From Brevibacillus laterosporus (GTDB lineage: Bacteria > Bacillota > Bacilli > Brevibacillales > Brevibacillaceae), in the NCBI GenBank assembly GCA_007833815.1, contig CP033464.1, forward strand, positions 3,590,001 through 3,654,000: a stretch of DNA of 64,000 nucleotides. The letters run 5' to 3'. Within the stretch, counting starts at the first letter, position 1. Every line of letters starts with the position of its first letter. The position numbers and the translations under genes are program-made. The notes under the pieces were generated by a model. The model ran no database searches and was not told where the DNA came from. It was given only the letters and a program-made list of their open reading frames with translations. Positions 23,061-60,556 of this stretch are shown piece by piece.

Positions 23061-23073
23061 TGTTCTCCCCTTT

Positions 23074-26000
23074 TTATACTTCGTTTGCAAGCTCCTGTGA
23101 TAGTTCCTCTTGTGACATCTTCTCTATTTCACTCAACATACGCTCGATTTCATCCATTTCCACTTGTCCGATCTGAGAGATAGTTATCGCTTGAGCTAAC
23201 TCAACAATGGTTGGTGATTGGAAAAGAATATCCATGGGAATATCGTTATGGAACGTATTTCGCAAACGCGTCACAAGCTGAATGGATAATAGAGAGTTAC
23301 CGCCTAATTCAAAAAAGTTAGCTTCTATACTGATGGCAGAAACACCGAATAATTCTTGCCAAATGTCAGTTATTTTCTTTTCCGTCTCATTGCGTGGTGC
23401 GACATAAGCTTGACTTACTTGATTGTGATATCCATCGGCACGGTGCGAATGAGCATTTGGTTGTTCGGAATCGTAGTGGATCAATTCATGAATCGCAGAA
23501 TGAATGTCTTGCGTAGAAACAATCACTTGAGAGAAGTCGCTTGTAAGAATACGGTTCATGACCTGCACTCCTTCACTTGCTGTGATTCCGTACTTTTCTT
23601 GCAATTGCTCCATATGCATCTTGATTTCTGACGGCATCCCCGTCTGGCTATGAATCCAATTATCGTTTTTCCACATTCCCCAGTTAATAGCAACAGTAGG
23701 TATTCCTTTTGCAGTATGATATCTAGCGAATGTATCCAAAAAGACATTTGCTACACAATTGTCCATCTGACCTACACCACCTGTTAGTGAGAATGTACGA
23801 GAGAATAGGATCATAAATTCAATATTCATATGGCTTATGATCTTTTCAAGAACGAGCGTGCCATACACTTGCTGAGCTATGTTTTGGTAGCAAGAATCTT
23901 TACTTTTCAACGGGATGAATCCAGAGCTAAGTCGCTCCGCAGCAAAAACGATACCTGTAATCCTTCCCACTTTGTCTTCCGCTATACGAATCACTTGACT
24001 CATTTCATCTTCATTTGTCACATCAGCAGTATAATAAAGTATTTCTTTACCATTTTGGTTAAGAAGTAGGATTCTTCTGATTTTGCTAGCAATCTCATCT
24101 TCTTCATCATGAGCTTGCAGGTAGCTATCCCACTGTTCTATTGATGGAAAATCAGGATCGCCTATTAAAACGAGTGAAGCTTGTACCGATTTGGCTATCT
24201 CTTCACTTACTGACAATCCAATTTCCTCAGTAGCACCTGTAATAAGGTATACCCCTTGGTCACGGAAAGAGTGTGGATATGTAAGAGGATTCTCTTTTGG
24301 CAATCTTATTTGCTCAAATTTTTGAACAAAACGGTGCACACCGCGAATAGCGACTATAAAATCAGAGGTATCGCTCATAAGCTCATCAAGAACTTGTTTT
24401 AGAAATCGATCTGATTTTTGGGAGAACACATCCGTCAGTTGAACGTCAATACAACGTGTTTTTATCTGAGTATATTCCTGTGATATGACACGCAGAGGTC
24501 CGAGTATGGTCGACCGCATTGGCAGATGAATCTCTTCATTGGATATTTCTTGCAAGTTATTTGACACTGTAATGATTTCCATCGTTTGATTTATTGCGTA
24601 CATTCCCAACTCTTTAGCAATGTACATCATACTATATAAACCATAATGCTCAATCTGTTCATCATCATGCCATAGTTCTTGCTCGTCTATAGATTGGATG
24701 CTCCACATGTGAACGATTTTGTCTGGCATGAGATTGTGCATATCCAATGCTTTAAACAACTCGTGATAAGATTCTCCGCTCATGATGTCGATCGTATAAG
24801 CAAGCTCGTCTATTTTTGAAAACTTCCGCCCAGGAACCACAGTCACTACTTCAAATCCAAGCTTCTCTACATGATTACATACCTGTTTACCTAGGCCTTG
24901 CTCGTCTTGAAAAATAAGCCACCTTTGTTTTGTCTCAGAAGCGTACTCATCTTCAATAGACCAAGCTCTACTCGATTGATTCCATACAGGAATATAGAAC
25001 CAATCAGCCATATCCCTTCTCTCCCGATTGAATGTATCAAATTGATCCCTTGTTGGCTTGACTTTCTCTAGGAAATAGGTCTTTCTTTCAAATGGATAGG
25101 TTGGAAGATGCACACGACGATGTTCTTCTTGATCCACGAAAGCACCCTGATTCATTTCTATTCCATAGCACCACAACCACCCCATCGCAATTCGTGTACT
25201 AGCCACATCAGATTGTTCTTTTTTGGCAGATGGCAATGTTGTAACTATGATTGTTTGTTGATCCTCTTGGGTTTCTCTGTGTTGACGTACAAGGGATGCA
25301 AGTGACTGTCCCGGTCCCACTTCAACAAAAATACTATTGGGCTCCTCCATCAGCGTGCGAACCCCTTCAGAGAATTGGACTGTCTCCCGAAGGTGTCTTT
25401 GCCAATAAAGAGGGTCTGTTGCTTGCGCAGAGGTAATCATCGAACCTGTAATGTTAGAGATGTATGGAATTCGTGGTTCAAGGAAAGTCATATTGTGTAA
25501 CGATTCATAAAACGGCTCTAGCATAGGCTCCATCATCGTCGAATGATAGGCGTGAGAGGTGATCAACCGTTTATAAGTAATACCTTTTGATTGCATCAAC
25601 CGCTCTATGCTAAGAATATCTTCATATGTACCCGCTATGACAGTGGACATCGGGCTATTCACTGCCGCTAATGATAGCTCTTTGCCATGCTCTTGCAGCA
25701 ATTCACGCACCTGTAATTCTCCTAATGCAACCGCTAGCATCGCTCCTTTATCCATCTCCTGCATTAAGCTTCCACGTTTTGAAATCATGTGCAGAGCTTC
25801 TTCCAATGACATTACACTGGCAAGGCAAGCTGCGACGTACTCACCTATGCTGTGGCCAATCATAGCTTGTGGACGAACTCCCCATGATTCCAACAATTTG
25901 GCTAATGCATATTCGATGATGAAAATGGCTGGTTGGGCATAGATGGTTTGGTTTAATTGTTCTCTAGCTTGTTCTTCCAACTCCTCAGTTGGATACATCA

Positions 26001-27732
26001 ACTCACGAATATCTATTCCGATGTGGTTCTTTACTTGTTCTGCACAATAATTCACCTGTTCTCTAAACATACTCTCAGTCTCATATAGGTCTCGTCCCAT
26101 ATTCACATACTGTGAGCCTTGACCCGAAAACATGAATACTACAAAGGGATTGTGGACTGCTCTTCCTTCTACCATGATTTCCTTAGGGTTATCTTGATAG
26201 TAGGTAGAAGGCATGTTATCGCCTCGTAAAGTCATTTTCGCATCTGTAGTTTCACGTACGATCAGAGCACTTCGATACGGAAACCCTTTTCTTCCTACGT
26301 GTAGCGTGTATGCCACATCTGCTAGATTCACCTCTGAATTTTTTTCCAAAAAATCTGTTAGATTTGCTTTTACCTTATTGAGAGCAGTTGGTGTCTTGGC
26401 AGAAAGAGTTAGTACTTTCCACTGGGAGTGTGTTAGCTCTTCTCTCTTTGCATATACAGGCGCCTCTTCTAGGATCACATGTACATTTGTACCCCCTATA
26501 CCAAACGAGCTAACTCCCGCACGGCGAGGATGTTCACCCGTCTTCCACTCTGTAAGCTTCGTGTTTACATAAAATGGACTTTGATCAAAGTTTATCTGCC
26601 GATTCGATTCAACAAAATGGAGGCTTGGGGGAATTTGTTTATTCGAAAGTGCAAGCACTGTTTTTATCAAACCCGTCACTCCAGCTGCACTATCAAGATG
26701 TCCAACATTGGTTTTTACAGATCCTATCGCACAAAAACCTGTTTTGGTCGTATGCTCACGATATGCTTCCGTCAGTGCCGCTATTTCAATTGGATCTCCC
26801 AATATTGTTCCTGTTCCATGTGCTTCTATGTAGCTGATCGTTTCTGGGTCAACATCAGCGATGGTAAGAGCATCTTTGATTACTTCTGCTTGCTGAGTGA
26901 CGCTAGGAGCTGTATAACCCACTTTTTGCATGCCGTCATTATTAATGGCTGTTCCTTTCACGACTGCTAGAATCTGATCATTGTCAGCCAAAGCGTCCTC
27001 TAAGCGTTTGAGCAATACGACCCCAACACCATTGCCAATTACCGTTCCTTGTGCATTAGAATCAAAGGCACGACAATGCCCATCTGGCGACAAAATACTG
27101 CCTTCTTGAAATTCGTGATCATTGCTCTGATCTGCCTTAACTGATACCCCCCCTGCCAAAGCCATATCACATTCGTATGTCAGCAGGCTTTGGCATGCCA
27201 TATGTACGCTTACCAAAGAACTAGAGCAAGCTGACTGTACCGCTACACTAGGTCCTTTTAAGTCTAGCTTGTAAGAGACACGTGTCGAAAGAAAATCAGG
27301 TTGTGTTCCAATCATGACTTGAAAGCTTCCTAGGGCATCTACGATTTCGGGATGACTATGTACATGGGATAAATATCCGGATTGTCCACTTCCTGCGTAA
27401 ACACCAATTCTCCCAGAATATTTCGCTGGATCATATCCTGCCTGTTCCAAAGCTTCATAGGAAATTTCGAGGAACAAACGTTGCTGGGGGTCTGTCACTT
27501 CTGCTTCCCGTGGGGTCATTTCAAAAAACTCTACATCGAACTCGGCCATATTTTCCAAAATCCCCATCGCTGGTATACTTTTTTCCCTTTTTCGCTCAAA
27601 AAAATGAATAGATTCTTCCCCGTTCTGAAGGTTATGCCAAAATTCTACTATATTTTTAGCACCCGGAAATCTCCCTGACATACCGATAATGGCAACTGAG
27701 GATTGCACGTCCTCGCTGTTCATCTCATGCAT
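23074..27732 (-). CDS. Modular polyketide synthase KS-AT-KR-ACP with degenerate KR
   Basis: 1552 residues. The ketosynthase has Cys in QSACSSSL (about 169) and both His motifs (EAHGTGT about 306, KTNVGHL about 346). The acyltransferase has GHSIGEY (about 627), and its HAYHS motif points to malonyl-CoA. The KR region starts near FYIPVW and has TGATEEIG instead of TGGxGGIG. Its GQMDNCVAN has Asn where the catalytic Tyr of GQxDYxAAN should be, so ketoreduction is probably lost. The ACP serine is in LGGNSLLS (about 1476). The module would add two carbons and leave a beta-keto group. Confidence 0.94.
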   Translation of the reverse strand: MHEMNSEDVQSSVAIIGMSGRFPGAKNIVEFWHNLQNGEESIHFFERKREKSIPAMGILENMAEFDVEFFEMTPREAEVTDPQQRLFLEISYEALEQAGYDPAKYSGRIGVYAGSGQSGYLSHVHSHPEIVDALGSFQVMIGTQPDFLSTRVSYKLDLKGPSVAVQSACSSSLVSVHMACQSLLTYECDMALAGGVSVKADQSNDHEFQEGSILSPDGHCRAFDSNAQGTVIGNGVGVVLLKRLEDALADNDQILAVVKGTAINNDGMQKVGYTAPSVTQQAEVIKDALTIADVDPETISYIEAHGTGTILGDPIEIAALTEAYREHTTKTGFCAIGSVKTNVGHLDSAAGVTGLIKTVLALSNKQIPPSLHFVESNRQINFDQSPFYVNTKLTEWKTGEHPRRAGVSSFGIGGTNVHVILEEAPVYAKREELTHSQWKVLTLSAKTPTALNKVKANLTDFLEKNSEVNLADVAYTLHVGRKGFPYRSALIVRETTDAKMTLRGDNMPSTYYQDNPKEIMVEGRAVHNPFVVFMFSGQGSQYVNMGRDLYETESMFREQVNYCAEQVKNHIGIDIRELMYPTEELEEQAREQLNQTIYAQPAIFIIEYALAKLLESWGVRPQAMIGHSIGEYVAACLASVMSLEEALHMISKRGSLMQEMDKGAMLAVALGELQVRELLQEHGKELSLAAVNSPMSTVIAGTYEDILSIERLMQSKGITYKRLITSHAYHSTMMEPMLEPFYESLHNMTFLEPRIPYISNITGSMITSAQATDPLYWQRHLRETVQFSEGVRTLMEEPNSIFVEVGPGQSLASLVRQHRETQEDQQTIIVTTLPSAKKEQSDVASTRIAMGWLWCYGIEMNQGAFVDQEEHRRVHLPTYPFERKTYFLEKVKPTRDQFDTFNRERRDMADWFYIPVWNQSSRAWSIEDEYASETKQRWLIFQDEQGLGKQVCNHVEKLGFEVVTVVPGRKFSKIDELAYTIDIMSGESYHELFKALDMHNLMPDKIVHMWSIQSIDEQELWHDDEQIEHYGLYSMMYIAKELGMYAINQTMEIITVSNNLQEISNEEIHLPMRSTILGPLRVISQEYTQIKTRCIDVQLTDVFSQKSDRFLKQVLDELMSDTSDFIVAIRGVHRFVQKFEQIRLPKENPLTYPHSFRDQGVYLITGATEEIGLSVSEEIAKSVQASLVLIGDPDFPSIEQWDSYLQAHDEEDEIASKIRRILLLNQNGKEILYYTADVTNEDEMSQVIRIAEDKVGRITGIVFAAERLSSGFIPLKSKDSCYQNIAQQVYGTLVLEKIISHMNIEFMILFSRTFSLTGGVGQMDNCVANVFLDTFARYHTAKGIPTVAINWGMWKNDNWIHSQTGMPSEIKMHMEQLQEKYGITASEGVQVMNRILTSDFSQVIVSTQDIHSAIHELIHYDSEQPNAHSHRADGYHNQVSQAYVAPRNETEKKITDIWQELFGVSAISIEANFFELGGNSLLSIQLVTRLRNTFHNDIPMDILFQSPTIVELAQAITISQIGQVEMDEIERMLSEIEKMSQEELSQELANEV

Positions 27733-27738
27733 ATTTTC

Positions 27739-30700
27739 TTACCTCCCACGTTTTCTTGCTTGTTTTTGTTTCTGCATCGCTTCTTTTCGTTTGAGAGCTA
27801 TTTCTCTATTCGAATCCAATGTTGGCACGATACTCATCTCTTGACTGAGTCTATGTGCCAATGTATGTATAGTGGGACAACGAAACATCTCAATAACCGG
27901 TAAGTTTCGTCTGAATATTGAATTAATTTCTTGGTGAGCAAATAGTAACCGATAGGAATCTCCACCAATATGAAAAAAGTGATCATGGATGCCTACTCGT
28001 TCAACTCCTAGTGCTTCCTGCCAAATTTTTGTCAAAACTCTTTCTATCTCGGTGACAGGAGCTACATAAGCTGTTTGATCATCCTTGCTGTTTAATTCAA
28101 CACTATTTAATTTTGTGCGATCGATTTTGCCATTTGGAGTCAACGGAATATCTTTTATGATCTTGATTACATTAGGAATCATGAAAAATGGAAGCTGGCT
28201 CTGTAGAAATACTCGCAATTCACCTGTTAGAGAAATAGAATGATCAAAATATCGAGAAAACGGCACAGCGTAAACCACCAGCTTCTTCCTGTATTTCCTA
28301 TTTTCTTCCACTACTGCCACACACTGCTTAACGGCTGGATGATTGCCTAGAACCTGTTCGATTTCTCCCATTTCAATTCTGTGTCCACGGATTTTTACTT
28401 GATCATCAATCCGACCTACGTATGCAATTCGTCCATTCGGTAAAAATCGGGCTAAATCTCCAGTGCGATAAAGTCGAATAGCCCCTTGCCAAAGCTCTTC
28501 AAACTCAATATAGACAAACTTTTCCCTAGTCAAGTCCTCCCGATTCAAATATCCGCGTGCTATACCTGCACCACCGATGTACACCTCACCTATAACACCA
28601 ACAGGAACAGGCTGTTGGTTCTCATCTAAAATAAATATTTTACAATTTGAAGTGGGCCTCCCAATATCCGGTGGTACTGGTTTGTCTATCGCTTCTGATT
28701 TATCTGTCTCTACATATTCACCACTAGATGAACATACGGTTGCTTCGGTTGGTCCATATGAATTCATAAAACGACGACCTTTCCCCCAGCGAACTGCAAT
28801 AGTAGCAGGACAAGCTTCTCCAGCTACCTCCAGAGTGCGAAGGTAAGGTAGTTTGGCATCAGGGAGTATAGCCATTACGGAGGGCGGAATTATTGCCATA
28901 TTAATTTTCTTCTCATGCAACCACTCAATCAATTGTTTTCCTGGAAGCAAGCGTTCTTTCGTATCCATGCATATTGTACTGCCGCTAGCAAGTGCAGGGA
29001 AGATTTCACGCACAGACGCATCAAAGCTGAATGAAGAGAATTGAATGATCCTAGTATCTTTCGAAAACCCATACAAGTCACGTGTAGCAAAAATCAAATT
29101 GCTAAGGCTTTTGTGTTCAATCATGACACCTTTGGGTTTGCCAGTCGAACCAGAGGTATAGATGACGTAAGCCAAGTCGTTAGGTTGCGGGAAGCATAGT
29201 GTCTCCAAAGACTGGCTATTTACACTTGTTTCATTATTCATTTCCGCTAGAGACTGTAGCACATCTATCCTTTCACCAGAAAAGTCGATGTTTGATAGAT
29301 CAAGCTCTCCAGAAGTGATTAAGACGGATGCAGCACTATCCTCCAACATGTACGCAATGCGTTCTGATGGGTAATCAGGGTCGATAGGCACATAGGCACC
29401 TCCCGCTTTACATACAGCTAACATGCTTACAATCATCTCAATGCTACGTGGAAGCATGATAGCAATAATGCTTTCTGGCCCAGCTTCTCTTCGCAAAGAA
29501 TGTGCCATACGAGTAGATAGTTCATCTAATTCTAGGTAACTTACCGTTTTCTCCCCAAACTCTACCGCATGATGCCCAGGTATCTGTCTCACTTGTTCTT
29601 TAAATAAATCTACAAAGGTTTTCTCTAGCGGATATTCTTTCTCTGTTCGATTCCAATCCACCAAAATCTTTGTTTTTTCTTCGAGAGTAAGCAAATCTAA
29701 CTCTCCAATATGTTTCATCGGGTTTATCAGAGCGTTTTCGATGAGTTTTTGGTATCGTTCGCTCCATATCTTGATCTCTTCTTCAGTAAATATCTCAAGA
29801 TGGTGATCAAAATCTAGTTGATAAATTTTGTTCTCACGCCTGTCTTTGATATGTAGGACTATCTCCTGTGGCTCGTATCCACTGAATTGTATGTCAGATG
29901 TATAATGCAGATCATCATGCATATCGAATTCTAATACCTGAAATTCCATTGCAATTGTAAATAGCTGCTGTACATTTGGGTGCTGCTCCCTCACCTTAGA
30001 TAATAAATTCTGATAGGGATATTTTTGATGTCGAAGCATTTGCCTTTGCTCTTTGGCAATCTCTTGACAATAGCTGACGAAATCTAAATCAGGATTTACC
30101 ATATGACGAAATGGTATTGTGCTTGCAAACATGCCAAACGCATGTTTATCACGTACATTTGAACGATTGCTAATAATATGTCCTACGATAATGTCCCTCT
30201 TGGCTGTAATCCGATAGAGGTAAAGATAGAAGGTTGCAAGGAAAAACACATAAGGACTTATCCCAAATTCTTCACAAAATGAATCAATGCGATCACGCAA
30301 ATCATCTTGTATGAACAATTTATGGCGTTCACTAGCAATATTTCGAGACAGCCCATCATGATCAGCAAGGCTAACTAATTCTGGGAAGTTTTCGAATTGA
30401 CTGCTCCAATAGGCTTCGTCCAACAAAAATCGTTTGGACTCAAGATATTCCCTTTCTCTATTAAGCATTTCAATATAGGAGGGTTTTACTTGCTTCTCCC
30501 GCTCTTCTCCCCTTGCTAAATGCTGATAACAAGAAACAATCTCTTTTATTGCATACAACATAGCCACACCATCAGCAATCAGATGACTGAACTTCATATA
30601 CAGCATCGTCTCTGCGTCAGTTTTTTGCAGTATGGCAAAATAATATAGTGGGCCTTCTGAAAACGAAAAGGGCTTTTTAGTCGTTTGGCTTAACCACTCT

Positions 30701-31017
30701 TGAATAACTTGTTCTCTCTGATGATGAAAACGAAAATCAAATATGGGTATACATGGATGGATGTCTTCGGCAATGATTTGCATTGGGAATTTATTATCAT
30801 TGCAGGATTGGCTGAAGATAGTTGTGAGGCGAATCGAGTCATTCTCACTGATAAATTGATGTATTGCTTTAATCAAAATATCATGATGAAGACTCGTAGA
30901 AAATGTAAATGAGGTAGCAAGATTCGTTGCCCCCAGATCTGGATAAATGTTTTCCACAAACCAAATTCGCTTTTGCGCATTGGTCAATGAATAGGACGGA
31001 ACTACTTCTACATGCAT
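27739..31017 (-). CDS. Nonribosomal peptide synthetase, first module C-A-PCP
   Basis: 1092 residues, the first gene of the operon. The N-terminal condensation domain has SHLIADG (about 142), so an upstream acyl group may be joined to the first amino acid. The adenylation domain has YTSGSTGKPKGVM (about 620), NSYGPTE and YRTGDLAR. I read its code as D-A-R-I-E-A-S-V-C-K. It is unusual in having Arg and Glu in the pocket and I cannot assign it. The carrier serine is in IGGDSYRL near residue 1020. A basic tail (QKQKQARKRG) may be a docking element for the PKS, whose gene starts 6 bp later. Confidence 0.94.
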   Translation of the reverse strand: MHVEVVPSYSLTNAQKRIWFVENIYPDLGATNLATSFTFSTSLHHDILIKAIHQFISENDSIRLTTIFSQSCNDNKFPMQIIAEDIHPCIPIFDFRFHHQREQVIQEWLSQTTKKPFSFSEGPLYYFAILQKTDAETMLYMKFSHLIADGVAMLYAIKEIVSCYQHLARGEEREKQVKPSYIEMLNREREYLESKRFLLDEAYWSSQFENFPELVSLADHDGLSRNIASERHKLFIQDDLRDRIDSFCEEFGISPYVFFLATFYLYLYRITAKRDIIVGHIISNRSNVRDKHAFGMFASTIPFRHMVNPDLDFVSYCQEIAKEQRQMLRHQKYPYQNLLSKVREQHPNVQQLFTIAMEFQVLEFDMHDDLHYTSDIQFSGYEPQEIVLHIKDRRENKIYQLDFDHHLEIFTEEEIKIWSERYQKLIENALINPMKHIGELDLLTLEEKTKILVDWNRTEKEYPLEKTFVDLFKEQVRQIPGHHAVEFGEKTVSYLELDELSTRMAHSLRREAGPESIIAIMLPRSIEMIVSMLAVCKAGGAYVPIDPDYPSERIAYMLEDSAASVLITSGELDLSNIDFSGERIDVLQSLAEMNNETSVNSQSLETLCFPQPNDLAYVIYTSGSTGKPKGVMIEHKSLSNLIFATRDLYGFSKDTRIIQFSSFSFDASVREIFPALASGSTICMDTKERLLPGKQLIEWLHEKKINMAIIPPSVMAILPDAKLPYLRTLEVAGEACPATIAVRWGKGRRFMNSYGPTEATVCSSSGEYVETDKSEAIDKPVPPDIGRPTSNCKIFILDENQQPVPVGVIGEVYIGGAGIARGYLNREDLTREKFVYIEFEELWQGAIRLYRTGDLARFLPNGRIAYVGRIDDQVKIRGHRIEMGEIEQVLGNHPAVKQCVAVVEENRKYRKKLVVYAVPFSRYFDHSISLTGELRVFLQSQLPFFMIPNVIKIIKDIPLTPNGKIDRTKLNSVELNSKDDQTAYVAPVTEIERVLTKIWQEALGVERVGIHDHFFHIGGDSYRLLFAHQEINSIFRRNLPVIEMFRCPTIHTLAHRLSQEMSIVPTLDSNREIALKRKEAMQKQKQARKRGR

Positions 31018-49508: not shown

Positions 49509-49752
49509 TACTAAACGTTCTATCATTCAGACTATTACCGTTTTACACCCTTCACCTTAGTCAAATAATTGAATTACCCCGTACAGACATGTTAATTTGT
49601 TTTCTACGTAACAGTCATAACACCAACATTTGGAGAATTACCCGAAACATCGCCAAAAGTTGAGTATACTCTATTGGAATAACTATTAAATACAGGTAGA
49701 ATGCTACTTAAGAGTGTCCCATAAGACTTGTTTCAAAAATAGAGGTGAGAAT

Positions 49753-49995
49753 ATGCGGAAAATCGGTTATATTCGGGTCAGTTCATTGGATCAAAACCCA
49801 GCTAGACAGCTTCAGCAGCTAAATGAAGTTGGCATGGATGTTATTTTTGAAGAAAAAGAATCTGGAGCAACACAGGACAGACCTGAATTGCAGAAGATGT
49901 TAAAGGAGTTACGAGAAGATGACATCATCTATGTATCGGACCTTACTCGCATTACCAGAAGTACAAGAGATTTATCCGAACTGGATAATAATTGA
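49753..49995 (+). pseudogene. Truncated serine resolvase, N-terminal 80 residues
   Basis: MRKIGYIRVSSLDQNPARQL, IFEEKESGATQDRPELQKML and IYVSDLTRITRSTRDLSEL match the catalytic domain of Tn3-family resolvases; the active Ser is in RVSS. The frame breaks off after SELDNN with a stop, and the helix-turn-helix end is missing. The 100 bp upstream resemble the region upstream of the complete resolvase gene at 56372, which indicates a second res-resolvase fragment of the same transposon family. Confidence 0.8.
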
Positions 49996-50081
49996 ATTTT
50001 GTTCAGCTAACGAGCAGAAATGCTCAATAAAACTAAGAGTAAGCGTGGTAAAATACGTTAACTGATCGGGGAAGGAGAAAT

Positions 50082-50558
50082 ATGGACATATCTATCCGAA
50101 ACGCTCATCAAGATGACTACGAGTCTTTGTTGCCTTTGTTCAGGCAGGTTCATGATCTACACGTTTTTGAAAGACCAGATTTGTATAAAGAAAACCCAAC
50201 TCCAGTCGGGAAAGAATTCTTCGAAAGCCAGCTAATTGATGTCAAACAGCATATTTTTGTGGCTACCATAGGCTTAGAGATAATCGGAGTAGTTGTGACG
50301 AAGGAAGAAGACATAACTGAAAATTCATTTGTGAAAGCGAGAAAGATATTATTTGTAAATAGTTTGTGTGTTTCCGAAACGTACAGAAATAAGGGCGTTG
50401 GAAAGAGACTTATGCAATATGTTATTGATTTCGGGGGAAGTCTGAAGGTTGATAGTATTGAATTAGGGGTATCGGAGAAAAATGCTTCTGCAATTTTATT
50501 TTATGAATCAATCGGAATGACAACGAAGAGTAGAAGAATGGAGCTTAGATTGAACTAA
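50082..50558 (+). CDS. GNAT-family N-acetyltransferase
   Basis: 158 residues with the acetyl-CoA motif: VNSLCVSETYRNKGVGKRLMQYV (the R-x-x-G-x-G/A loop) and a following NASAILFYESIGM. A GGGGAAGGAG site precedes the start. The substrate is unknown. It sits between two mobile-element fragments. Confidence 0.88.
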   Translation: MDISIRNAHQDDYESLLPLFRQVHDLHVFERPDLYKENPTPVGKEFFESQLIDVKQHIFVATIGLEIIGVVVTKEEDITENSFVKARKILFVNSLCVSETYRNKGVGKRLMQYVIDFGGSLKVDSIELGVSEKNASAILFYESIGMTTKSRRMELRLN

Positions 50559-50617
50559 CGGAGATCGATAGCTAAATAAACAACAAAAGACGGTTCTTCA
50601 GACCTTTGTTCTTACCC

Positions 50618-51136
50618 CTGTCAAGTAGACAGCATTAAAAAAGCCTAAGCAGCCAGTATGTTCCGGTATTCGACCGGGGCACACTGGTTTAGTTTTTTCT
50701 GAAATCGTTCATGGTTATAGAACCATATGTACTTTTCAATGGCTTGAAAGAGCTCTTCATCTGTTTTACACTCAGAAAAGTACAATGTCTCTGTTTTGAG
50801 ATGAGAAAAGAAGGATTCTATGCAGGCGTTATCGAGGCAGTTTCCTTTGCGAGAGTGGCTGCCTCTCACACCAAAATCCCTCAGTCTCTTATTGTACTGC
50901 TTAGACGTGTATTGGAAGCCCTGATCAGAATGCAGGATGGCTTCCAATACACGTCTCTTTGTTTTGCTAACTGCTCCAAAGTATCTAAAACAAGTTTTAA
51001 AATCCTTCCGATGAGAAACCTTCCAGGCAACAACTTCGTTGTTAAAGAGATCTTGGATTACCAATAGGTAATAAAATCGATCGTTCAGTGCTACAAATGT
51101 AATATCTGTTACATACAATTGATATTCCTGCGTCAA
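50618..51136 (-). pseudogene. IS3-family (IS150-like) transposase, C-terminal remnant
   Basis: 163 codons hold the DDE domain of OrfB: YVTDITFV, HSDQGFQYTSKQYN, and the Glu in NACIESFFSHLKTE. The N-terminal half and OrfA are missing. A TGTCAAGTAGACAGC sequence at about 50618 may be the retained terminal repeat. The element cannot transpose by itself. Confidence 0.8.
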
Positions 51137-51371: not shown

Positions 51372-51942
51372 TTATTTCTTAAATAAAGGTGATATTTTAT
51401 CAATGCGATTTGTCCAAATTCCACCTGTATAATCGTCAGGAAGGCGTTTTATATCTTCAGATGAGTCAAATCCACTTGAAAATCCAAACCCATTTCCTCC
51501 TACAACGATAACTCGAGTATCTGCTTTATCCATTCGATTAAGAAAACGATTTGGCCATCCCCAAAGCCAAGGAGCTACTTTGTCTGGTATATGTAACTCT
51601 CCATGCTCCAGGCTTGAAGGCATGTAGCCAGTCCACCCTTACGCAATATAAGTAAGAAGATCCTTTTTCATGGTTGCTTTTGACATTGTTCGTAAACTAG
51701 GGATGCGCTCTTTTATCGCAGCAATTGGTTTATCGCCACCATATACAGTTAGTTGATCAAGGCGCTGGTAATTTCTTGAGGTGAGTAGCCAATTGGATTC
51801 CTTCATTTTCATCATCACTTTTAATATGAATAAGAAAAGAACGATCTGGAAAATGGTTAAGTACTTCATCAAGTGTTGGCATAAGATTAATCCCTTTACC
51901 ACGAAACGGGAATGTTTTCCCTCCATCAGCTGTATAACAATA
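51372..51942 (-). pseudogene. Glycerophosphodiester phosphodiesterase-like gene, C-terminal part, broken
   Basis: Pieces of one protein lie in shifting frames: YTADGGKTFPFRGKGINLMP, LDEVLNHFPDRSFLIHIKSD, then after a frameshift QLTVYGGDKPIAAIKERIPS and KATMKKDLLTYIA. An in-frame stop (TAA) follows, then GELHIPDKVAPWLWGWPNRF and GGIWTNRIDK. The order matches GDPD-type phosphodiesterases, which hydrolyse deacylated phospholipids. The N-terminus is missing and is replaced directly by the vanH fragment. The gene is dead. Confidence 0.6.
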
Positions 51943-52050
51943 TCAAGTGCTTGTAATGGCAGGTATGACACCAAAGCGTGGCGAAAGTTCATTGAACACT
52001 TCAGCCTCGTCCCTCTCACATCCATAAATGGTAATGCCGATATTTTTCAT
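51943..52050 (-). pseudogene. vanH: vanH remnant, first 35 codons
   Basis: MKNIGITIYGCERDEAEVFN, then ELSPRFGVIPAIT, matches the N-terminus of VanH, the D-lactate dehydrogenase of glycopeptide-resistance operons. A GAGAGG site precedes the ATG. Homology stops after about 33 codons at the junction with the phosphodiesterase remnant, and TGA follows (51943-51945). The gene order vanY-vanZ-vanH matches the vanF-type operon as I recall it from Paenibacillus popilliae. Confidence 0.8.
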
Positions 52051-52148
52051 ACTATCAACCTCTCTCTTGTCAAATAATTTTTGGCCCTCAGGCAGCTGAT
52101 AACCTAACCCCTTTCCTCGTTATATATACAGACAATCATAATGTTCAT

Positions 52149-52769
52149 TTAGATAATTTTTCGAAATAAAATTGGATAATGAAGTAATATCATACCTATA
52201 AATGAGCAAACTAAATAAAAAACAGCCTCGTATTTTACTACTAGAGAGGATTTAATATCAGGTTTTATTTCACCTCTTTTATGTACCATTACAAATAAAG
52301 CACTATATATTAAATACCCAATAATCGCCCCTAGGGTGTTCATAAGTAAATCATCAATATCTGTAATCCTATGATTTACCAATTGACTTAGCTCAATAGC
52401 CAATGAAAAAAATAATCCAGTATATGCAACATTTTTAATTGATCTAAACTGCGGCCAAATAGTTGGTAATAAAAAACCTAACGGCATAAATAAAATAATG
52501 TTCAAAATATACGTAGTACTGCCTTCAGAAGCAAAAGGGAGTAAGTTGATTTCACTTATACGAATTAATGTTTCATATCTTCCTATTACCCATATATTCC
52601 CTATCCCCGTCACCATATACACTAGCGCAAGGTAGAAAAGAAAAACATACACCCATAGAAAATGCTTAATAGATAAATTTTTTTGCGCCTTTAATAAAAA
52701 TCCAATTTGAAACACAATACAAAAAATAATAGTACAAAAATAAGTATACAAAACTGTAAGTGTAAGCAT
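52149..52769 (-). CDS. vanZ: VanZ-family membrane protein
   Basis: 206 residues with about five helices. VanZ signatures are INLLPFA, NIILFMPLGFLLP and SLAIELSQLVNHRITDIDDLLMNTLG. VanZ gives low-level teicoplanin tolerance in Tn1546. It lies between vanY and the vanH remnant, in frame and apparently intact. With the ligase gene gone, full vancomycin resistance is not expected. Confidence 0.9.
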   Translation of the reverse strand: MLTLTVLYTYFCTIIFCIVFQIGFLLKAQKNLSIKHFLWVYVFLFYLALVYMVTGIGNIWVIGRYETLIRISEINLLPFASEGSTTYILNIILFMPLGFLLPTIWPQFRSIKNVAYTGLFFSLAIELSQLVNHRITDIDDLLMNTLGAIIGYLIYSALFVMVHKRGEIKPDIKSSLVVKYEAVFYLVCSFIGMILLHYPILFRKII

Positions 52770-52829
52770 ATAGAATACGTCTCCTAACTTTACATTTAAA
52801 CCTATGACTTTATCATTTTAGAACCTAAT

Positions 52830-53693
52830 TCAAGAAAATGTGGTCACAATCACTCCATCAATATTATTACCAGATATTTCATACTGTTCATTCGCTGGTA
52901 CTTCAACTTCAATTGTCTCGTTTTGAGAAATGGGATAATATGAAATTGTATATTTTTTCCCATCAACACTAACAGAAATGCTCTTTTCTTCTTTTAAATA
53001 ATCCAAATATTCTTCCAAAGCTAAATTCATTTCCTGCATAATCGCACTGTGAGGCAAGCCGACATAGCGAATATGCCAAGGTTCATATTGAATTCCTGTA
53101 ACATCCGTTTTATCCAAGGGATAGCGTAATATAAAGCCGTATTTTCAAGAATTTCCTTCTATCCACTCTCCTTCAGGTGCTTCTTCCATCTTCATTTGAG
53201 TAGACCCTACATCAAGTGCTAATCCTAAATTGTGTTCGCTATGACCAGCTGGCAAAGCATAGTCAGCCCCCATCTCCTCGTACAGTCTGTTTTGCTCATC
53301 AAAGTCTCGATAACCACTGCTAATTAAGAAATTACTAACCCCATCCTCTTCAGCCGCAGCTATCATCTCCGAAAATTTTTCAGCTATTTCTTCTGATAAT
53401 TTTATTTCACTATTAAGTAACTGGTATCCGGTTGTTAATTCTTTGTGTGTAAATAAATTTATGATATCCGATTTTATACCAGCTTGATGAACAGCATATT
53501 CACTGTTAACCAAAAGCAGATTCCCTTGATAGATCTGCTCTTCTGTAATCTCAATCTTTTGGGTATTTTCAGTAGCTGTATTATCATTTTGTTCATATAT
53601 TTGATCCTCTACTTTATCTTGGGATATCGGTAATATATTAAAAATAAAAACTAGAAATAATGCAAAAACCAATAAAAATCCCCACTTTTTCAT
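52830..53693 (-). pseudogene. vanY: vanY D,D-carboxypeptidase with one internal TGA
   Basis: The frame is continuous over 287 codons apart from TGA at 53145-53147, in EWIEGNS-stop-KYGFILRYPLDKTD, where relatives have Trp (one base change from TGG). A membrane anchor (about 5-25) leads to the zinc peptidase motifs SSGYRDFDEQNRLY, HSEHNLGLALDVG and, beyond the stop, EPWHIRYVG. VanY trims the terminal D-Ala of pentapeptide precursors. The truncated product lacks the last zinc ligand, so it should be inactive unless the stop is read through. Confidence 0.88.
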
Positions 53694-53810
53694 TTTTAGT
53701 CTCCTCCTTGATGTAACTTGTTTATAGGATAGGAAAAACTTTTAAAATAAAAAGTGGGGTAAATATTAAATTTTTCTTAAATTTTTACTTGGATTTTATT
53801 ATTAATCTTC

Positions 53811-54908
53811 TTAGGAATCCGCCATTGGTAATCGGACTTCAAATATAGTGCGTATTAAATCACTTTCGGCAGTTATTGTCCCATTGTGTTGCTCTACAAT
53901 ATTCTTCGCAATGAATAAACCGAGACCTGTACTATTTTCTTGATGAGTTCGTGCTTTGTCACCAGTATAAAGCATATCAAAAATATGAGGCAGTTCATCT
54001 GGAGGAATGGCATCCCCATAATTGATAACTTGAATAACTACTTCCTCTGAATCAATAAAACCGTTGATATCTACATACTGCCCCTCATACCCATAGCGAT
54101 TTGCATTAATCAGAAGATTTTCAAACACACGTGCCAACAACTCTCCATCACCCATAATAGATAAAGGGGAAGTAATATTCATTCTTGCTATCAAATCGTT
54201 TTTCTCGAAGACAGGATACAACTCTTCTTTCAATTGAATAAGTAGCTCACTTAAGTCGATTTGTTTCTTTTCAATTGGTAACATGCCATAATTCATCCTA
54301 GTTAATTCGAATAATTCATCAATTAACCTTTCTAAGCGTTGAGATTTGGTAAAGGCAATCGTTAAATAATGCCTGATCTGATTTTCAGTCAAGCTATCAT
54401 CCTTAAGGATTAAATCTAAATAACCTAAAACAGAGGTAAGAGGTGTGCGCAAATCATGAGCCAAATTTACTACTAACTGCTCTTTACTACTTTCCGAAAA
54501 GTCACCCCTTTCTATGGCTTGTTCCAATTTTTCACTTGCCAGATTAATGCCTTGTGCAATATCACTAAATTCATCATTTGACAATATTTGAACTCGATGC
54601 TTAAAGTCACCCTGAGCGAGATAATGAATTCCTTTTGAAATCTCATTGAAATAGGCAGAATAGGGTTTTGTAAGTAAAAAGAAAAATAATATCGAAAGCG
54701 TGATAAATAACAGTAAAAAGACGTTAAGGTCTCCAATATTTTGTATGATTTTGCGAAAATAAGCTAGTGTATCTCCATAACTAACATTTGTATAATAATA
54801 CAATTGGAGTACTTTAAAGAGTAGGTATGTTATGGCGCTAGACAACAACATGCTTAAACCTAACAATATTATCATTTTTGAACGAAAGCCTCGTAGTATT
54901 TTACCCAT
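53811..54908 (-). CDS. vanS: VanS-type sensor histidine kinase
   Basis: 365 residues. Two transmembrane helices (about 11-33 and 58-80) enclose a short sensor loop. The HAMP region follows, with NLAHDLRTPLTSVLGYLDLI (His about 150), LLINANRYG (N-box) and NSTGLGLFIAKNIVEQHNG (G2). The H-box and overall layout match VanS of VanA/VanF-type operons, which respond to glycopeptides. It overlaps vanR by 8 bp. It looks intact. Confidence 0.92.
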   Translation of the reverse strand: MGKILRGFRSKMIILLGLSMLLSSAITYLLFKVLQLYYYTNVSYGDTLAYFRKIIQNIGDLNVFLLLFITLSILFFFLLTKPYSAYFNEISKGIHYLAQGDFKHRVQILSNDEFSDIAQGINLASEKLEQAIERGDFSESSKEQLVVNLAHDLRTPLTSVLGYLDLILKDDSLTENQIRHYLTIAFTKSQRLERLIDELFELTRMNYGMLPIEKKQIDLSELLIQLKEELYPVFEKNDLIARMNITSPLSIMGDGELLARVFENLLINANRYGYEGQYVDINGFIDSEEVVIQVINYGDAIPPDELPHIFDMLYTGDKARTHQENSTGLGLFIAKNIVEQHNGTITAESDLIRTIFEVRLPMADS

Positions 54909-55596
54909 TGAATTTATAACCTACCCCCCATACAGTTTTTATCAATTTGTTTTTTCGTTTATCCTCTTCAAGTTTTTTCCGCAAAGTACGAATATGAACC
55001 ATAACGGTATTCCCACCTTCATAGTATGCATCCCCCCATACCTTCTGAAAAATATCTTCTGCACTATAAACTTTATTTGGATTACTGGCTAATAAATATA
55101 AAATTTCAAACTCTTTAGGTGTTAACTCAATATTCTTACCATATAGAGTAACTGTACGTTGTTCAGGAGAAATCGTTAATCCTCCAAATGCCAAGTTTGA
55201 GTTCTGTTTGGTTTTAGGTTGATTCAACTTCATAAAGCGTCGCAGCTGTGCATTTACCCGAGCTACCAATTCAATAGGTATAAATGGTTTCGTCATATAA
55301 TCGTCTGCTCCAATCACGAGTCCCTGCACTTTATCAAAATCAGACGTTTTAGCGCTCAAAAAAATAATGGGCATATTATGTTTTTCGCGAATGCGACGTG
55401 TAACTTCATATCCATCCATTTTCGGCATCATAATATCCAAAATCAGTAAATCAATTGGTTGAGTCTGGATAACATCAATGGTTTCTTGCCCATCCGATAC
55501 CTTAATGACACGATACCCTTCTTTCTCTAAATGTATAGCAACCAAATCAGCAATTTCAACATCATCATCAGCTATTAATATTGTTATATTTTTCAT
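54901..55596 (-). CDS. vanR: VanR-type response regulator
   Basis: 231 residues, OmpR family. Receiver: ILIADDDVEIADLVAIHLEK, phospho-Asp in LLILDIMMPKMDGYEV (about 53) and Lys in DDYMTKPFIPIEL. The winged helix ends KTVWGVGYKF. It controls the van promoters once phosphorylated by VanS. It lies next to a Tn1546-type resolvase, the same neighbour as in Tn1546. Confidence 0.92.
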   Translation of the reverse strand: MKNITILIADDDVEIADLVAIHLEKEGYRVIKVSDGQETIDVIQTQPIDLLILDIMMPKMDGYEVTRRIREKHNMPIIFLSAKTSDFDKVQGLVIGADDYMTKPFIPIELVARVNAQLRRFMKLNQPKTKQNSNLAFGGLTISPEQRTVTLYGKNIELTPKEFEILYLLASNPNKVYSAEDIFQKVWGDAYYEGGNTVMVHIRTLRKKLEEDKRKNKLIKTVWGVGYKFNG

Positions 55597-55796
55597 TTAT
55601 TCCACTCCTAGACAAAGTTATCATTAATCGTCAATAAGTCATACGAAGTTGTATCATAAAAAAACATCAGTTTTTGATAGTTAGTTCCGCAAAGTTAGTT
55701 TAACAGTGTGAAGTTAGTTGAATAATTTAGAGTTTTTATTTATATTGTTTCCTTTTCTTCTTTAAAAATATTGCCCATTAGCGGAATACAGAATGG

Positions 55797-56372
55797 CTAA
55801 TTATTCACTTCTGATAATTTCCTGTATAATGAAGCCCTAGATACATTAGTAATTTCACAAATTTGATTTACAGTCATATTTCCTTCTTTATATAGCTTTA
55901 CCGCATAATTCATTCCTGCGTGATTTTTATGATACTTCTTTAATCGACCTTTAAACTTTCCTTCTTTCTTAGCCAATTCAATCCCTTCACGTTGTCGCAT
56001 CCGAATAAGATCTCGCTCTAATTGGTTAACACCAGCCATTACAGTAATTAAGAATTGGCTGTATGGATTATCTTCTGATAAATCAAGCCATGTATCTTTT
56101 AGTGATTTTAAGCCTGCCTTTTTATTTCGTATGTTATCGATTAATTCAAATAGATCTTGTGTACTACGAGTGATTCGAGTTAAGTCTGTAACATAAATGA
56201 TGTCATCTTCCTGTAAATCCTCTAACATTTTTTGAAGTTGCTCGCGATCCTTTGTTGCTCCTGAAACTTTCTCTTCATATATAATATCCATTCCGATCTC
56301 GTTCAGCTGCTGAAATTGTCTTGAAGGATTCTGGCTAGTCGAACTGACACGAATATAACCGATTTTCCGCAA
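55797..56372 (-). CDS. tnpR: Tn1546-type serine resolvase
   Basis: 191 residues, the length of the Tn1546 resolvase as I recall it, with near-identical blocks such as RKIGYIRVSSTSQNPSRQFQ, YEEKVSGATKDREQLQKML and a C-terminal helix-turn-helix (MTVNQICEITNVSRASLYRK). The start is TTG, preceded by GAGGTGAT. It resolves cointegrates at a res site, which should lie in the divergent 56373-56519 interval, where repeated TACTCTATTG-type motifs are seen. Confidence 0.93.
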   Translation of the reverse strand: MRKIGYIRVSSTSQNPSRQFQQLNEIGMDIIYEEKVSGATKDREQLQKMLEDLQEDDIIYVTDLTRITRSTQDLFELIDNIRNKKAGLKSLKDTWLDLSEDNPYSQFLITVMAGVNQLERDLIRMRQREGIELAKKEGKFKGRLKKYHKNHAGMNYAVKLYKEGNMTVNQICEITNVSRASLYRKLSEVNN

Positions 56373-56519
56373 AATATCACCTCATTTTTGAGACAAGTCT
56401 TATGAGACGCTCTTAACTATGATTTTATCAGTCTACTACACTTGTATCAATAGAGTACACTCTATTGATATATAATTGAACTAATTAACTGAATAATTAA
56501 AGAAACGAGATGATACTGT

Positions 56520-57778
56520 ATGAAAATTGCGAGAGGTAGAGAATTGCTTACACCGGAACAGCGACAGGCTCTTATGTAAATTCCTGAAGATGAGTGGGTG
56601 CTAGGAACCTACTACACTTTTTCCAAACGAGATTTAGAAATTATAAATAAACGAAGGAGAGAAGAAAACCGTTTAGGGTTCGCCGTTCAATTAGCCGTTC
56701 TTCGGTATCCCAGTTGGCCATACACTCATATCAAAAGCATCCCGGATTCAGTCATACATTATATATCGAAACAAATCGGTGCCACTCCATCTTTGCTTAG
56801 TCTTTATCCTCAAAGAGAAAATACACTTTGGGATCATTTGAAAGAAATTCGAAGTTTACTCTAAAAGAATATCGAATGGTATTTAAGCATCTTCATCAAT
56901 CAGCTTTGGAAAATGGTGATGCCGTGCATCTACTACATGAATGCATAGATTTTCTAAGGAAAAACAAATCATACTACCTGCTATCACTACACTTGAAAGA
57001 ATGGTGTGGGAGGCAAGGGCAATGGCTGAAAAGAAGCTATTTAATACGGTTAGTGAATCTCTAACAAATGACCAAAAAGAAAAGCTTGAAGAGATCATTA
57101 CTTCACACGAATCAAATAAAACTATAGTAGGTTGGTTAAAGGAACCGCCGGGTCATCCTTCACCTGAAACATTTCTAAAAGTGATAGAACGACTTGAATA
57201 CATACGAGGAATGGAATTAGAAACAGTTAGCATTAGTCATTTGCATCGCAATCGATTGTTACAGCTATCCCGTTTAGGCTCAAGATATGAGCCTTATGCT
57301 TTTCGTGACTTTCAGGAAAATAAGCGTTATTCGATATTAGCCGTATATTTATTACATCTTACTCAAGAGCTAACAGATAAAGCTTTTGAAATTCATGATA
57401 GACAAATACTAAGTTTGTTATCGAAGGGACGAAAGGCTCAAGAAGAAATTCAGAAACAATGGACAAGCATTAATCAAAGCGAAAAGTACCTGATGACTCA
57501 CCGGTGGATTTTATTTCAAAACGTTGGAAAAAGCATTTATACGAGAGTGATGGTATGAGAATGCAGATAGGTGTTTCATCATTACGTGCAGATGCAAACC
57601 CACATTATGGAACTGGAAAAGGAGCCACCATCTACCGTTTTACTAGTGATCAATTCTCTTCTTACTACACAAAGATTATTCATACTAATTCAAGGGATGC
57701 GATTCATGTTTTGGATGATTTGTTGCACCATGAGACGGATCTAAACATAGAAGAGCATTATACAGACACTGCTGGTTA
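56520..57778 (+). pseudogene. tnpA: Tn1546-like transposase tnpA, 5' and central fragments
   Basis: Translation starts MKIARGRELLTPEQRQALM, hits TAA at 56577-56579 (CAA to TAA), and continues IPEDEWVLGTYYTFSKRD. Frameshifts near 56860 and 56960 and deletions near 57465 and 57557 follow. Matching blocks are FLRKNK, ILPAITTLERMVWEARAMAE, LGSRYEPYAFRDFQENKRYS, DFISKRWKKHLYESDG, fused to MRMQIGVSSLRADANPHYGT. The catalytic core is incomplete. The last codons are DTAGY, where the next insertion begins. Confidence 0.88.
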
Positions 57779-58080
57779 TCAATACCTTTTTATAAAAAAG
57801 TTAGAATTTAAATGGGTTCTTTCATTATAGACATGTATTTAAAGAATGATTTAAAAATAACTAACGATTCAAAATTGTTGGCCATCACCTTCCATAATCG
57901 CGCCCTTTAATGGAATAACAAAAATAGAAACACAAGATGCAAATAAGCTTATTATCTTCAACTAACACCACTCATTAGTTGACATACATTATTTCACATT
58001 CTTCAGAAGTAAAGCCTCCTAGTCCTTTTATATAAAAATGACCTCCATTACATATGAGAAGGTCATTTTTTTGATTAAAC

Positions 58081-58956
58081 TTAATTTCCTGTTTGAGAGA
58101 TTTGACTAACAATTTGGCTTAAAGCTTCGTTTATTGGTGTAGCAGGGCGACCGAGTAATTTTTCTAAATCGTTACTTTTTATCTCTAATCCACCATCTCG
58201 AATACCTTTTTGCGTATTTACGAGCATAGGAATATAGGCTTCTGGTACCCCTGCATCCTTCATAATGTCGGCATAAGTAGCATCATCGACTTGTTGTACA
58301 TGGACTTCTTTCCCTAATACATCTCCAAGAGCAGATACTAATTCCTCTTGAGTCATTAGCTTACCGGAAAGCTCGTAAATTGTATTCTCGTGTCCTTTTC
58401 CAGTCAATACCTTTGATGCTGCCTCCGCTAAATCTTGTCGAAGTACCCAGCCTACTTTTCCTTTTCCTGCTGATGTAACCCAAGGTGCTCCTGCCATCGC
58501 GCCTTGTATGCCTCCAATTTCATTTTCAAAATACCAATTGTTGCGTAAAAATGAGTAGGGAATACCTGTTTTCAAAATGGCTTCTTCTCTGGCTCTATGA
58601 GATGAAGCGAGGAAAAATTTACTTTCACTTGCATTTGTTACACTAGTATAAGCAATAAATTTCACTTGAGCACGTTGAGCAGCGGCTACGGCATTCGTAT
58701 GATGTCTCATTATTGTTTCATGATCCCCAAACGTAGATATAATTAAAAGTCGATCAATTCCTGAAAAAGCAGAATCTAATGTTTTTGGTTGATCAAAATC
58801 TCCGTGTCGAACTTCCACTCCAAGAGCTCGCAATCCTTCTGCTTTCTCTGGATTTCGAACACTAACAGCCAACTCACTCGCTGGTACATTTTTTAATAAT
58901 GCTTCTACAACTTTTGACCCTAATTTTCCTGTTGCACCTGTAACTAATATTTTCAT
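58081..58956 (-). CDS. NmrA-like NAD(P)-dependent oxidoreductase (QorB/YtfG-like)
   Basis: 291 residues from MKILVTGATGKLGSKVVEAL, with GGAGGG before this ATG. The Rossmann motif TGATGKLG is at the N-terminus, followed by VRNPEKAEGL and GDFDQPKTL, as in atypical SDR/NmrA quinone reductases. LAYTS/YEL segments and SFLRNNWYFEN fit the family. It is divergent from an HxlR regulator over a perfect palindrome, the usual arrangement for quinone- or aldehyde-responsive detoxification genes. It looks intact. Confidence 0.88.
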   Translation of the reverse strand: MKILVTGATGKLGSKVVEALLKNVPASELAVSVRNPEKAEGLRALGVEVRHGDFDQPKTLDSAFSGIDRLLIISTFGDHETIMRHHTNAVAAAQRAQVKFIAYTSVTNASESKFFLASSHRAREEAILKTGIPYSFLRNNWYFENEIGGIQGAMAGAPWVTSAGKGKVGWVLRQDLAEAASKVLTGKGHENTIYELSGKLMTQEELVSALGDVLGKEVHVQQVDDATYADIMKDAGVPEAYIPMLVNTQKGIRDGGLEIKSNDLEKLLGRPATPINEALSQIVSQISQTGN

Positions 58957-59042
58957 TTTCTTTCCCTCCAATTAAATTTTCATATTGAATTATGAAGCCT
59001 AGGTATATACTATATCCATAGTCACAATAATAAAAGTAGGTA

Positions 59043-59069
59043 TTTTTTTGTGACATAGTCACAAAAAAA
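59043..59069. promoter_or_regulatory. Perfect 27-bp operator between NmrA-like and HxlR genes
   Basis: TTTTTTTGTGAC, ATA, GTCACAAAAAAA is a perfect 12+3+12 dyad in the divergent promoter region. It is almost certainly the binding site of the HxlR protein. Confidence 0.7.
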
Positions 59070-59102
59070 GTACCATTATGAGAGAGAGGGAAAATAGAAT
59101 CA

Positions 59103-59468
59103 ATGGCTCGATTTAATTTTCAAGGAGAACCACCTCCTGAAGAACAAGAAGAAGTATGCTCTTTGACACTTACTCAAAATGTAATCGCTGGAAGATGGAA
59201 AATTATTATTTTATGGTATTTAAGTCGGCGAACAAGAAGATTTAACGAACTTCAAAGGTTGTTACCGGGCATTTCAAAAGGAATATTGACAAGACAACTG
59301 AGAGAGTTGGAAGAGGACGGAATGGTTCACAGAGAAGTGTATAAACAAGTTCCTCCTAAAGTAGAATACTCGCTAACAATACAAGGGAAAGGCTTTATAC
59401 CAGTATTGGACATTATGGGAGAGTGGGGTAAAAAATATATGGAGAAAAAACAAAAGGAATTAAATTAG
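59103..59468 (+). CDS. HxlR-family redox-type regulator
   Basis: 121 residues. Winged helix: CSLTLTQNVIAGRWKIIILW, FNELQRLLPGISKGILTRQL, then PPKVEYSLT. The Cys before the first helix (about residue 19) is the position used by YodB/HypR-type sensors to react with quinones or disulfides. It is divergent from the NmrA-like reductase gene and probably represses it. A hairpin AAAGGGCTAT/ATAGCCCTTT at about 59490-59519 ends the transcript. Confidence 0.9.
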   Translation: MARFNFQGEPPPEEQEEVCSLTLTQNVIAGRWKIIILWYLSRRTRRFNELQRLLPGISKGILTRQLRELEEDGMVHREVYKQVPPKVEYSLTIQGKGFIPVLDIMGEWGKKYMEKKQKELN

Positions 59469-59638
59469 TCCACACCAAGTTAATGAAAAAAGGGCTATGG
59501 CATAGACTATAGCCCTTTCTTATGTAAATTACCTCTTTTTCCTCAATTGTGAAAAAGGTATTTATTAATACACCTTATTCAATTAAATGGCCCGATTGCA
59601 GAATAAAAAAGACATTCTACTATCTTTTAAAGGCATTG

Positions 59639-60241
59639 TCATATTACACAAAAATTAAATAGGGCCCTTATATTGCTGCACGCATTACGAATTACTTGCA
59701 ATTGGTTTTTACTTAAAGTTTTGACTGTACGTCTTGGCTCCTTAATCTTAAGAATGTTTTTATCAAACGAATTATCTTTTGTAATATGATGAAGAAAAGG
59801 TTTAAATGTCTTGAAACGCCCTGGTACTTGCTTTTTCAATTGATCGGATATATTTTTTCCGTAATCCTCATTACGAGCCATATAGTCATAGAACCCGATT
59901 ACACACGTTATGATGGTATTTACTGTTTTTTCTGATCGTTTCGCTAAGGTCTCTTCAAAGTAAATAATTTTTGAAGATTGGTCAGGAATCCTCAGCCAAC
60001 CGATGAATCGAGCCAAAATATCAAGGTTTACTTCTTGATAGCTTAACCCATACTCCTCTAGGAATTGAAAGTAGAGCTTTAGATGGTAACAGTATGATTT
60101 CAGTGTGTTTTCAGCTTTTCCAATGTTATCTAAATACTTTATATACTTTGCAACCGGTATGACAGGATAGCCACTCTTGTCAATTAACAGATATCTTTTC
60201 CTCTCTTGAATTAGAATTTCTTGTACTTTCAACATTATCAC
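59639..60241 (-). pseudogene. Tn554 TnpA-like tyrosine recombinase, N-terminal part only
   Basis: 200 codons. MLKVQEILIQERKRYLL, then AENTLKSYCYHLKLYFQFL (SAM-like core-binding domain), SEKTVNTIITCVIGFYDYMA and the TnpA-type motif PGRFKTFKPFLHHITKD. The catalytic domain should begin after TLSKNQLQVIRNACSNIR but the frame ends within a few residues. The Arg-His-Arg-Tyr residues are therefore absent, so it is inactive. It may mark a lost Tn554-family element. Confidence 0.75.
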
Positions 60242-60370
60242 CCTCTGATTTCATAGGATATATATATTCATAAATTTCATAGTACACATAATGATTCTTT
60301 AAAGAAATCTAAAAGAAGTAGTTGTTATCGTTAGATACGTTAATAACTACTTCTAATACTAGTACAATAA

Positions 60371-60530
60371 TGCTGGTTACACAGACCAAATTTTCGGACT
60401 GACTCATTTATTAGGATTTAAATTTACTCCAAGAATAAGAGATTTATCGGACTCGAAATTATTTACAATAGATAAAGCAAGTAAGTATCCAAAATTAGAA
60501 GTCATTTTACGTGGACAAATAAATACAAAG
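60371..60530 (+). pseudogene. tnpA: Tn1546-like tnpA, continuation beyond the insertion
   Basis: The frame AGYTDQIFGLTHLLGFKFTP, then RIRDLSDSKLFTIDKASKYP and EVILRGQINTK, continues the transposase exactly where the 57778 fragment stops. The last quarter of the protein is deleted, and the terminal repeat follows at once. Confidence 0.85.
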
Positions 60531-60534
60531 AATA

Positions 60535-60556
60535 CGCATTTTCCTGACGGTACCCC
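60535..60556 (+). repeat. Terminal inverted repeat of the Tn1546-like transposon
   Basis: The 22 bp end in CTGACGGTACCCC. Read on the minus strand they start GGGGTACCGTCAGGAAAATG, the Tn3-family style with close similarity to Tn1546. Chromosomal sequence resumes at 60557. Confidence 0.75.

Follow-up and report, generated by a model that had tools for sequence, protein, structure and literature searches.

Remains of a transposon with vanF-type cargo and a Tn1546-type vehicle in the Brevibacillus laterosporus group

The van regulators and accessory genes have been traced to the Bacillales (PMC11273654), and the same source gives the vanF operon as vanRSYZHFX and describes vanRS pairs linked to vanY or vanZ in the absence of a ligase, Paenibacillus lentimorbus being one example; neither "transpos" nor "Tn1546" occurs in its text. 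From the Brevibacillus laterosporus group, loci in which vanYZ are accompanied by pseudogenes of vanH and of transposases have also been reported (PMC9689679). The present work concerns such a locus in a bacterium of this group, within a 64,000-nt stretch of DNA (contig CP033464.1, positions 3,590,001 to 3,654,000; the window). Judged from its sequence, the locus is a decayed transposon, combining vanF-type cargo with almost the same vehicle as that of Tn1546, the vanA transposon of vancomycin resistance in hospitals. The single genes and their order are already known, and it is their link to a Tn1546-type vehicle that is apparently unpublished; no description of an R-S-Y-Z transposon with Tn1546-type borders was found in the open-licence literature. 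The origin of the Tn1546 cargo is an open question, and the relic helps to trace how the vehicle gained it. The locus further suggests that vanF, so far treated as an environmental operon, was once carried on the same kind of vehicle.

vanF-type cargo and Tn1546-type vehicle

The cargo genes, all on the minus strand, follow the order R-S-Y-Z-H, which is that of the vanF operon of Paenibacillus popilliae ATCC 14706 (L046) and not that of Tn1546 (R-S-H-A-X-Y-Z; copy in NC_008768, L012). Both vanR (54904..55596; 231 aa; VanR-F/M type, 472.2 bits, cut-off 460) and vanS (53814..54908; 365 aa; 401.8 bits, cut-off 400; HAMP, HisKA and HATPase_c domains) are intact and above their model cut-offs. The vanY gene is broken by a single stop, which splits the enzyme inside its VanY domain. 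Its pieces 5' (53148..53693) and 3' (52833..53144) of the stop correspond to the first and last parts of the Pfam domain, and when searched separately they score 278.4 and 204.7 bits with the VanY-A/F/M model, whose cut-off of 425 applies to the whole protein. An intact vanZ of the VanZ-F type follows (52152..52769; 376.9 bits, cut-off 375, P. popilliae scoring 464.8), then a spacer (52051..52151) and a 5' stub of vanH (51943..52050; VanH-A group, E 3.2e-12), comprising about the first 34 codons. The original prediction, made from the DNA letters without database searches, had described this series correctly, including the order of the genes, the intact regulators and the one stop in vanY, and its figure of 35 vanH codons was about right.

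The vanF-type character of the cargo, likewise foreseen, is reflected in the amino acid identities, which for VanR, VanS and VanZ are 97, 97 and 83% to P. popilliae as against 47, 36 and 33% to Tn1546, and for the two VanY pieces 82 and 96% as against 64 and 77%; the VanH stub is 97% identical to P. popilliae VanH over 35 positions. The trees of VanR, VanS and TnpR agree with a vanF-type origin of the van genes and a Tn1546-type origin of the transposon genes, with moderate support for their crown groups (88/100, 91/100 and 83/90), while the tree of the N-terminal VanY piece leaves Tn1546 unplaced. Compared with the P. popilliae operon, the window lacks the ligase, VanX and most of VanH, has a broken vanY and carries the spacer between vanZ and vanH. 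Resistance is not expected, as predicted, because VanX is missing from all six genomes of the genus searched (the same query does detect P. popilliae) and this genome holds just one ligase, of the host kind that is found in all six, and none of the D-Ala-D-Lac (D-alanine-D-lactate) type.

The vehicle presents a different affinity, its genes being of the Tn1546 type as the original prediction had it. Upstream of vanR lie tnpR and tnpA, on opposite strands. The serine resolvase gene tnpR (55797..56372, minus strand) is open throughout and matches Tn1546 at 568 of 576 nt (98.6%; 97.4% aa) and a Peribacillus element at 562 of 576, compared with 506-520 for four elements with other cargo. Among plasmid records it has 326 matches (238 of them from Enterococcus), 240 being at 95% or more. 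Within the best 60 of these 326, the closest match apart from Enterococcus and the Staphylococcus aureus record NC_005054, a vanA plasmid, reaches 92.5% and belongs to a Cytobacillus plasmid, where the neighbouring gene encodes an MFS transporter. Behind tnpR, a 60-nt spacer (55737..55796, minus strand) is shared with Tn1546 at 57 positions (95%), and its part more distant from tnpR, about 33 nt, is shared only with Tn1546-like rows among the best 60 of 326. Close kinship to Tn1546 is limited to tnpR and this spacer, ending where the cargo begins. In P. popilliae, by comparison, only a 99-nt scrap of tnpA accompanies the operon, whereas the van genes of the window are joined to an intact resolvase gene of the Tn1546 type.

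The transposase is represented by pieces alone, with no complete Tn3-type transposase in the window. Its broken 5' pieces occupy 56598..57778 on the plus strand (within 56598-57555 and 57549-57778) and a further piece, 93% identical to Tn1546 in nucleotides, occupies 60371..60530 on the same strand; in amino acids the pieces are 80-96% identical to Tn1546. Directly behind the truncated gene sit the outer 22 nt of the Tn1546-type terminal repeat (60535..60556, minus strand, 1 mismatch). The repeat thus lies where it was predicted, although a search of the window for the full 38-bp end, with as many as 3 mismatches allowed, gave no match, and no right-hand end was found there. The same backbone carries other cargo elsewhere, namely a sulfate exporter on a Niallia plasmid (flanked by target repeats TTTAT) and an AraC regulator on a Listeria innocua plasmid (flanked by TATAA).

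The scores exclude chance as the source of the van and tnp matches. The locus had been proposed as an intermediate toward the clinical transposon, which is unsupported, since the vanRS of Tn1546 is only 36-47% identical to that of the window and has no recent origin from it; the vehicle alone is common to the two. The link to Tn1546 is close at tnpR, with its direction unproven. That the whole relic is a diverged Tn1546 was considered and ruled out (cargo at 32-47% aa, tnpR at 98.6% nt).

Relatives and probable movement between species

The arrangement R-S-Y-Z between Tn1546-type borders was found again in two other species, their cargo being 96.8 and 95.5% identical in nucleotides to that of the window, and a scan of named genomes with two peptide patterns returned at least 5 loci. 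Within the searched set the element is rare. Beyond the genus, VanZ was searched at E <= 1e-60 in 40 genomes from the order and in 399 sampled from the class; either search matched 3, and these were the same three members of the genus. At E <= 1e-30 there were matches in 3 of 72,556 plasmid records, all below 60% identity. Close DNA relatives of the resolvase module with other van cargo in named Bacillales genomes make a comparison of the borders testable.

From vanY through vanZ and the vanH stub to the GDPD debris, B. laterosporus MSSRFCCT15 (L014) shares 93.5% identity with the window, compared with 75% for the neighbouring chromosomal stretch and 85.5% for the ligase region. The relic was therefore probably transferred between species. 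The two loci share the junction of vanH stub and GDPD debris but differ in their regulators, which in MSSRFCCT15 are vanA-type (VanR 93.9% and VanS 87.4% aa to Tn1546), while its vanH and ligase scraps are closer to P. popilliae (87.6% nt) than to Tn1546 (79.9%). With a vanA-type RS pair and the vanH and ligase scraps before vanY, vanZ and the vanH stub, the MSSRFCCT15 locus reads as a mosaic of both operon types. On another contig of the same assembly (contig 31 of G005; L017 2418-3678), a piece of vanA-type vanS, the end of vanZ and GDPD debris are joined.

A possible vanY regulon and the alternatives

Upstream of the broken vanY lies a 62-bp promoter stretch (53711..53772, minus strand), a putative VanR target that is conserved upstream of other vanY genes. 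Of its 62 nt, 61 are matched at L013 and 49 at L065, both in the same genome, 45 in another genus of the family (L070) and 42 even at vanY in an operon of the vanG type (L067); the B. laterosporus row of this alignment comprises 27 nt only. The highest of 200 shuffles, which preserve base content only, reached 32-36, and two intergenic stretches of Tn1546 score 29 and 27, within the shuffle range. The vanY at L013 is intact (489.9 bits, cut-off 425) and stands beside vanZ; that at L065 is also intact, slightly below the cut-off with 422.9 bits, as is the neighbouring VanR with 458.9 against 460. VanR binding at the 62-bp stretch may be proposed from this conservation, in which case the VanR of the relic would act upstream of several vanY genes, controlling the distant intact copies in trans. 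No second VanS of the window's type was found elsewhere in the genome at E <= 1e-60. Because its sensor pair and the distant targets are intact while the local target is broken, the genome is a natural test of whether VanRS can control a scattered vanY regulon without conferring resistance.

The first of these loci (L013 12003-14072, C4 ~126-128 kb) also contains a Tn1546-type right end, a vanZ of 55% aa identity and a vanS remnant, and a close copy of it with a broken vanY is present in another genome of the genus. The second (L065 5506-7326, C4 ~831-833 kb) comprises vanR, a vanS remnant and vanY; a Tn1546-like end that carries 5 substitutions lies close by.

The strongest alternative, with not far from an even chance of being right, is that the relic is dead and regulates nothing, vanRS being intact merely because decay is recent. 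The broken vanY fits this explanation, as do the few changes private to the window, namely one nonsynonymous and one synonymous in each of VanR and VanS, none in the VanY pieces, and none nonsynonymous and one synonymous in VanZ; with so few, the intactness of vanRS requires no selection. These counts leave out, for differing piece lengths, L046 and L014 (N-terminal VanY), L013 and L014 (C-terminal VanY) and L044 and L047 (VanZ); in VanZ, the near identity of L014 with the window masks private changes. Against a dead relic, the promoter stretch also precedes intact vanY genes elsewhere in the genome. A further possibility, that a Tn1546-like element came by chance to lie beside an ordinary vanF operon on this chromosome and both then decayed, would explain the missing right end and the accompanying GDPD debris, IS3-type open reading frame and second resolvase piece, yet it is very improbable given the recurrence of R-S-Y-Z between Tn1546-type borders in two other species.

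Several observations nevertheless weigh against a Tn1546-type transposon with a working regulator pair. VanS exceeds its cut-off by just 1.8 bits. The tnpA gene is no nearer to Tn1546 than to other elements; over the 939 nt compared its identity is 88.9% with Tn1546 and 89.0-90.2% with three of the others. In the spacer, the 24-27 nt beside tnpR are common to several non-van rows (starting at query position 34-37), and for the intron tail even Tn1546 gives a weak score (16.4 bits, E 0.84). With one partial end and a broken tnpA, the relic's own mobility cannot be shown, and the Peribacillus element is the sole relative to retain both ends, in degraded form, with target repeats matching at 4 of 5 positions. 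A 19-nt promoter repeat has 11 matches genome-wide against 21 for its reversed control, the short motif alone being uninformative. The scan for promoters and terminators was equally so, with 25 promoter-like and 2 terminator-like sites where shuffled sequences gave 24.6 and 1.7.

The insert in tnpA and the neighbouring debris

Of the predicted span, 51372..60556, two parts do not belong to the van relic. The first is the debris of a host GDPD gene (51372..51930, minus strand), which lies downstream of the cargo and is fused to the vanH stub. Its inclusion in the van operon is ruled out; an intact paralogue elsewhere in the genome has a Pfam match, and the pieces themselves had none in a Pfam search. 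The second is a separate 2.6-kb insertion that interrupts tnpA (57779..60370, plus strand), flanked on both sides by the 8-nt target repeat GCTGGTTA, in which an NmrA-like gene and an HxlR regulator accompany the remnant of a recombinase.

In a Cytobacillus plasmid, tnpA is interrupted at the same position by a relative of the insert. This relative encodes two tyrosine recombinases together with a DUF6262 protein, and elements of that make-up go by the name Tn554; the recombinase remnant of the window is 80% identical to this relative in amino acids. A similar gene set stands behind tnpR in a second Cytobacillus plasmid (relatives at L061 10004-15518 and L093 10309-14602). The insert is possibly a site-specific element targeting tnpA of the Tn3 family.

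The relic is separated from the left flank by a stretch (49662-51136) that contains a GNAT gene, the IS3-type integrase reading frame and a truncated second resolvase, whose nucleotide identity with the Tn1546 tnpR region is 73.6%. Farther away, at 17881-31017, the window contains four very long open reading frames of 423 to 1552 aa, all on the same strand, with a raised GC content of 0.41-0.43.
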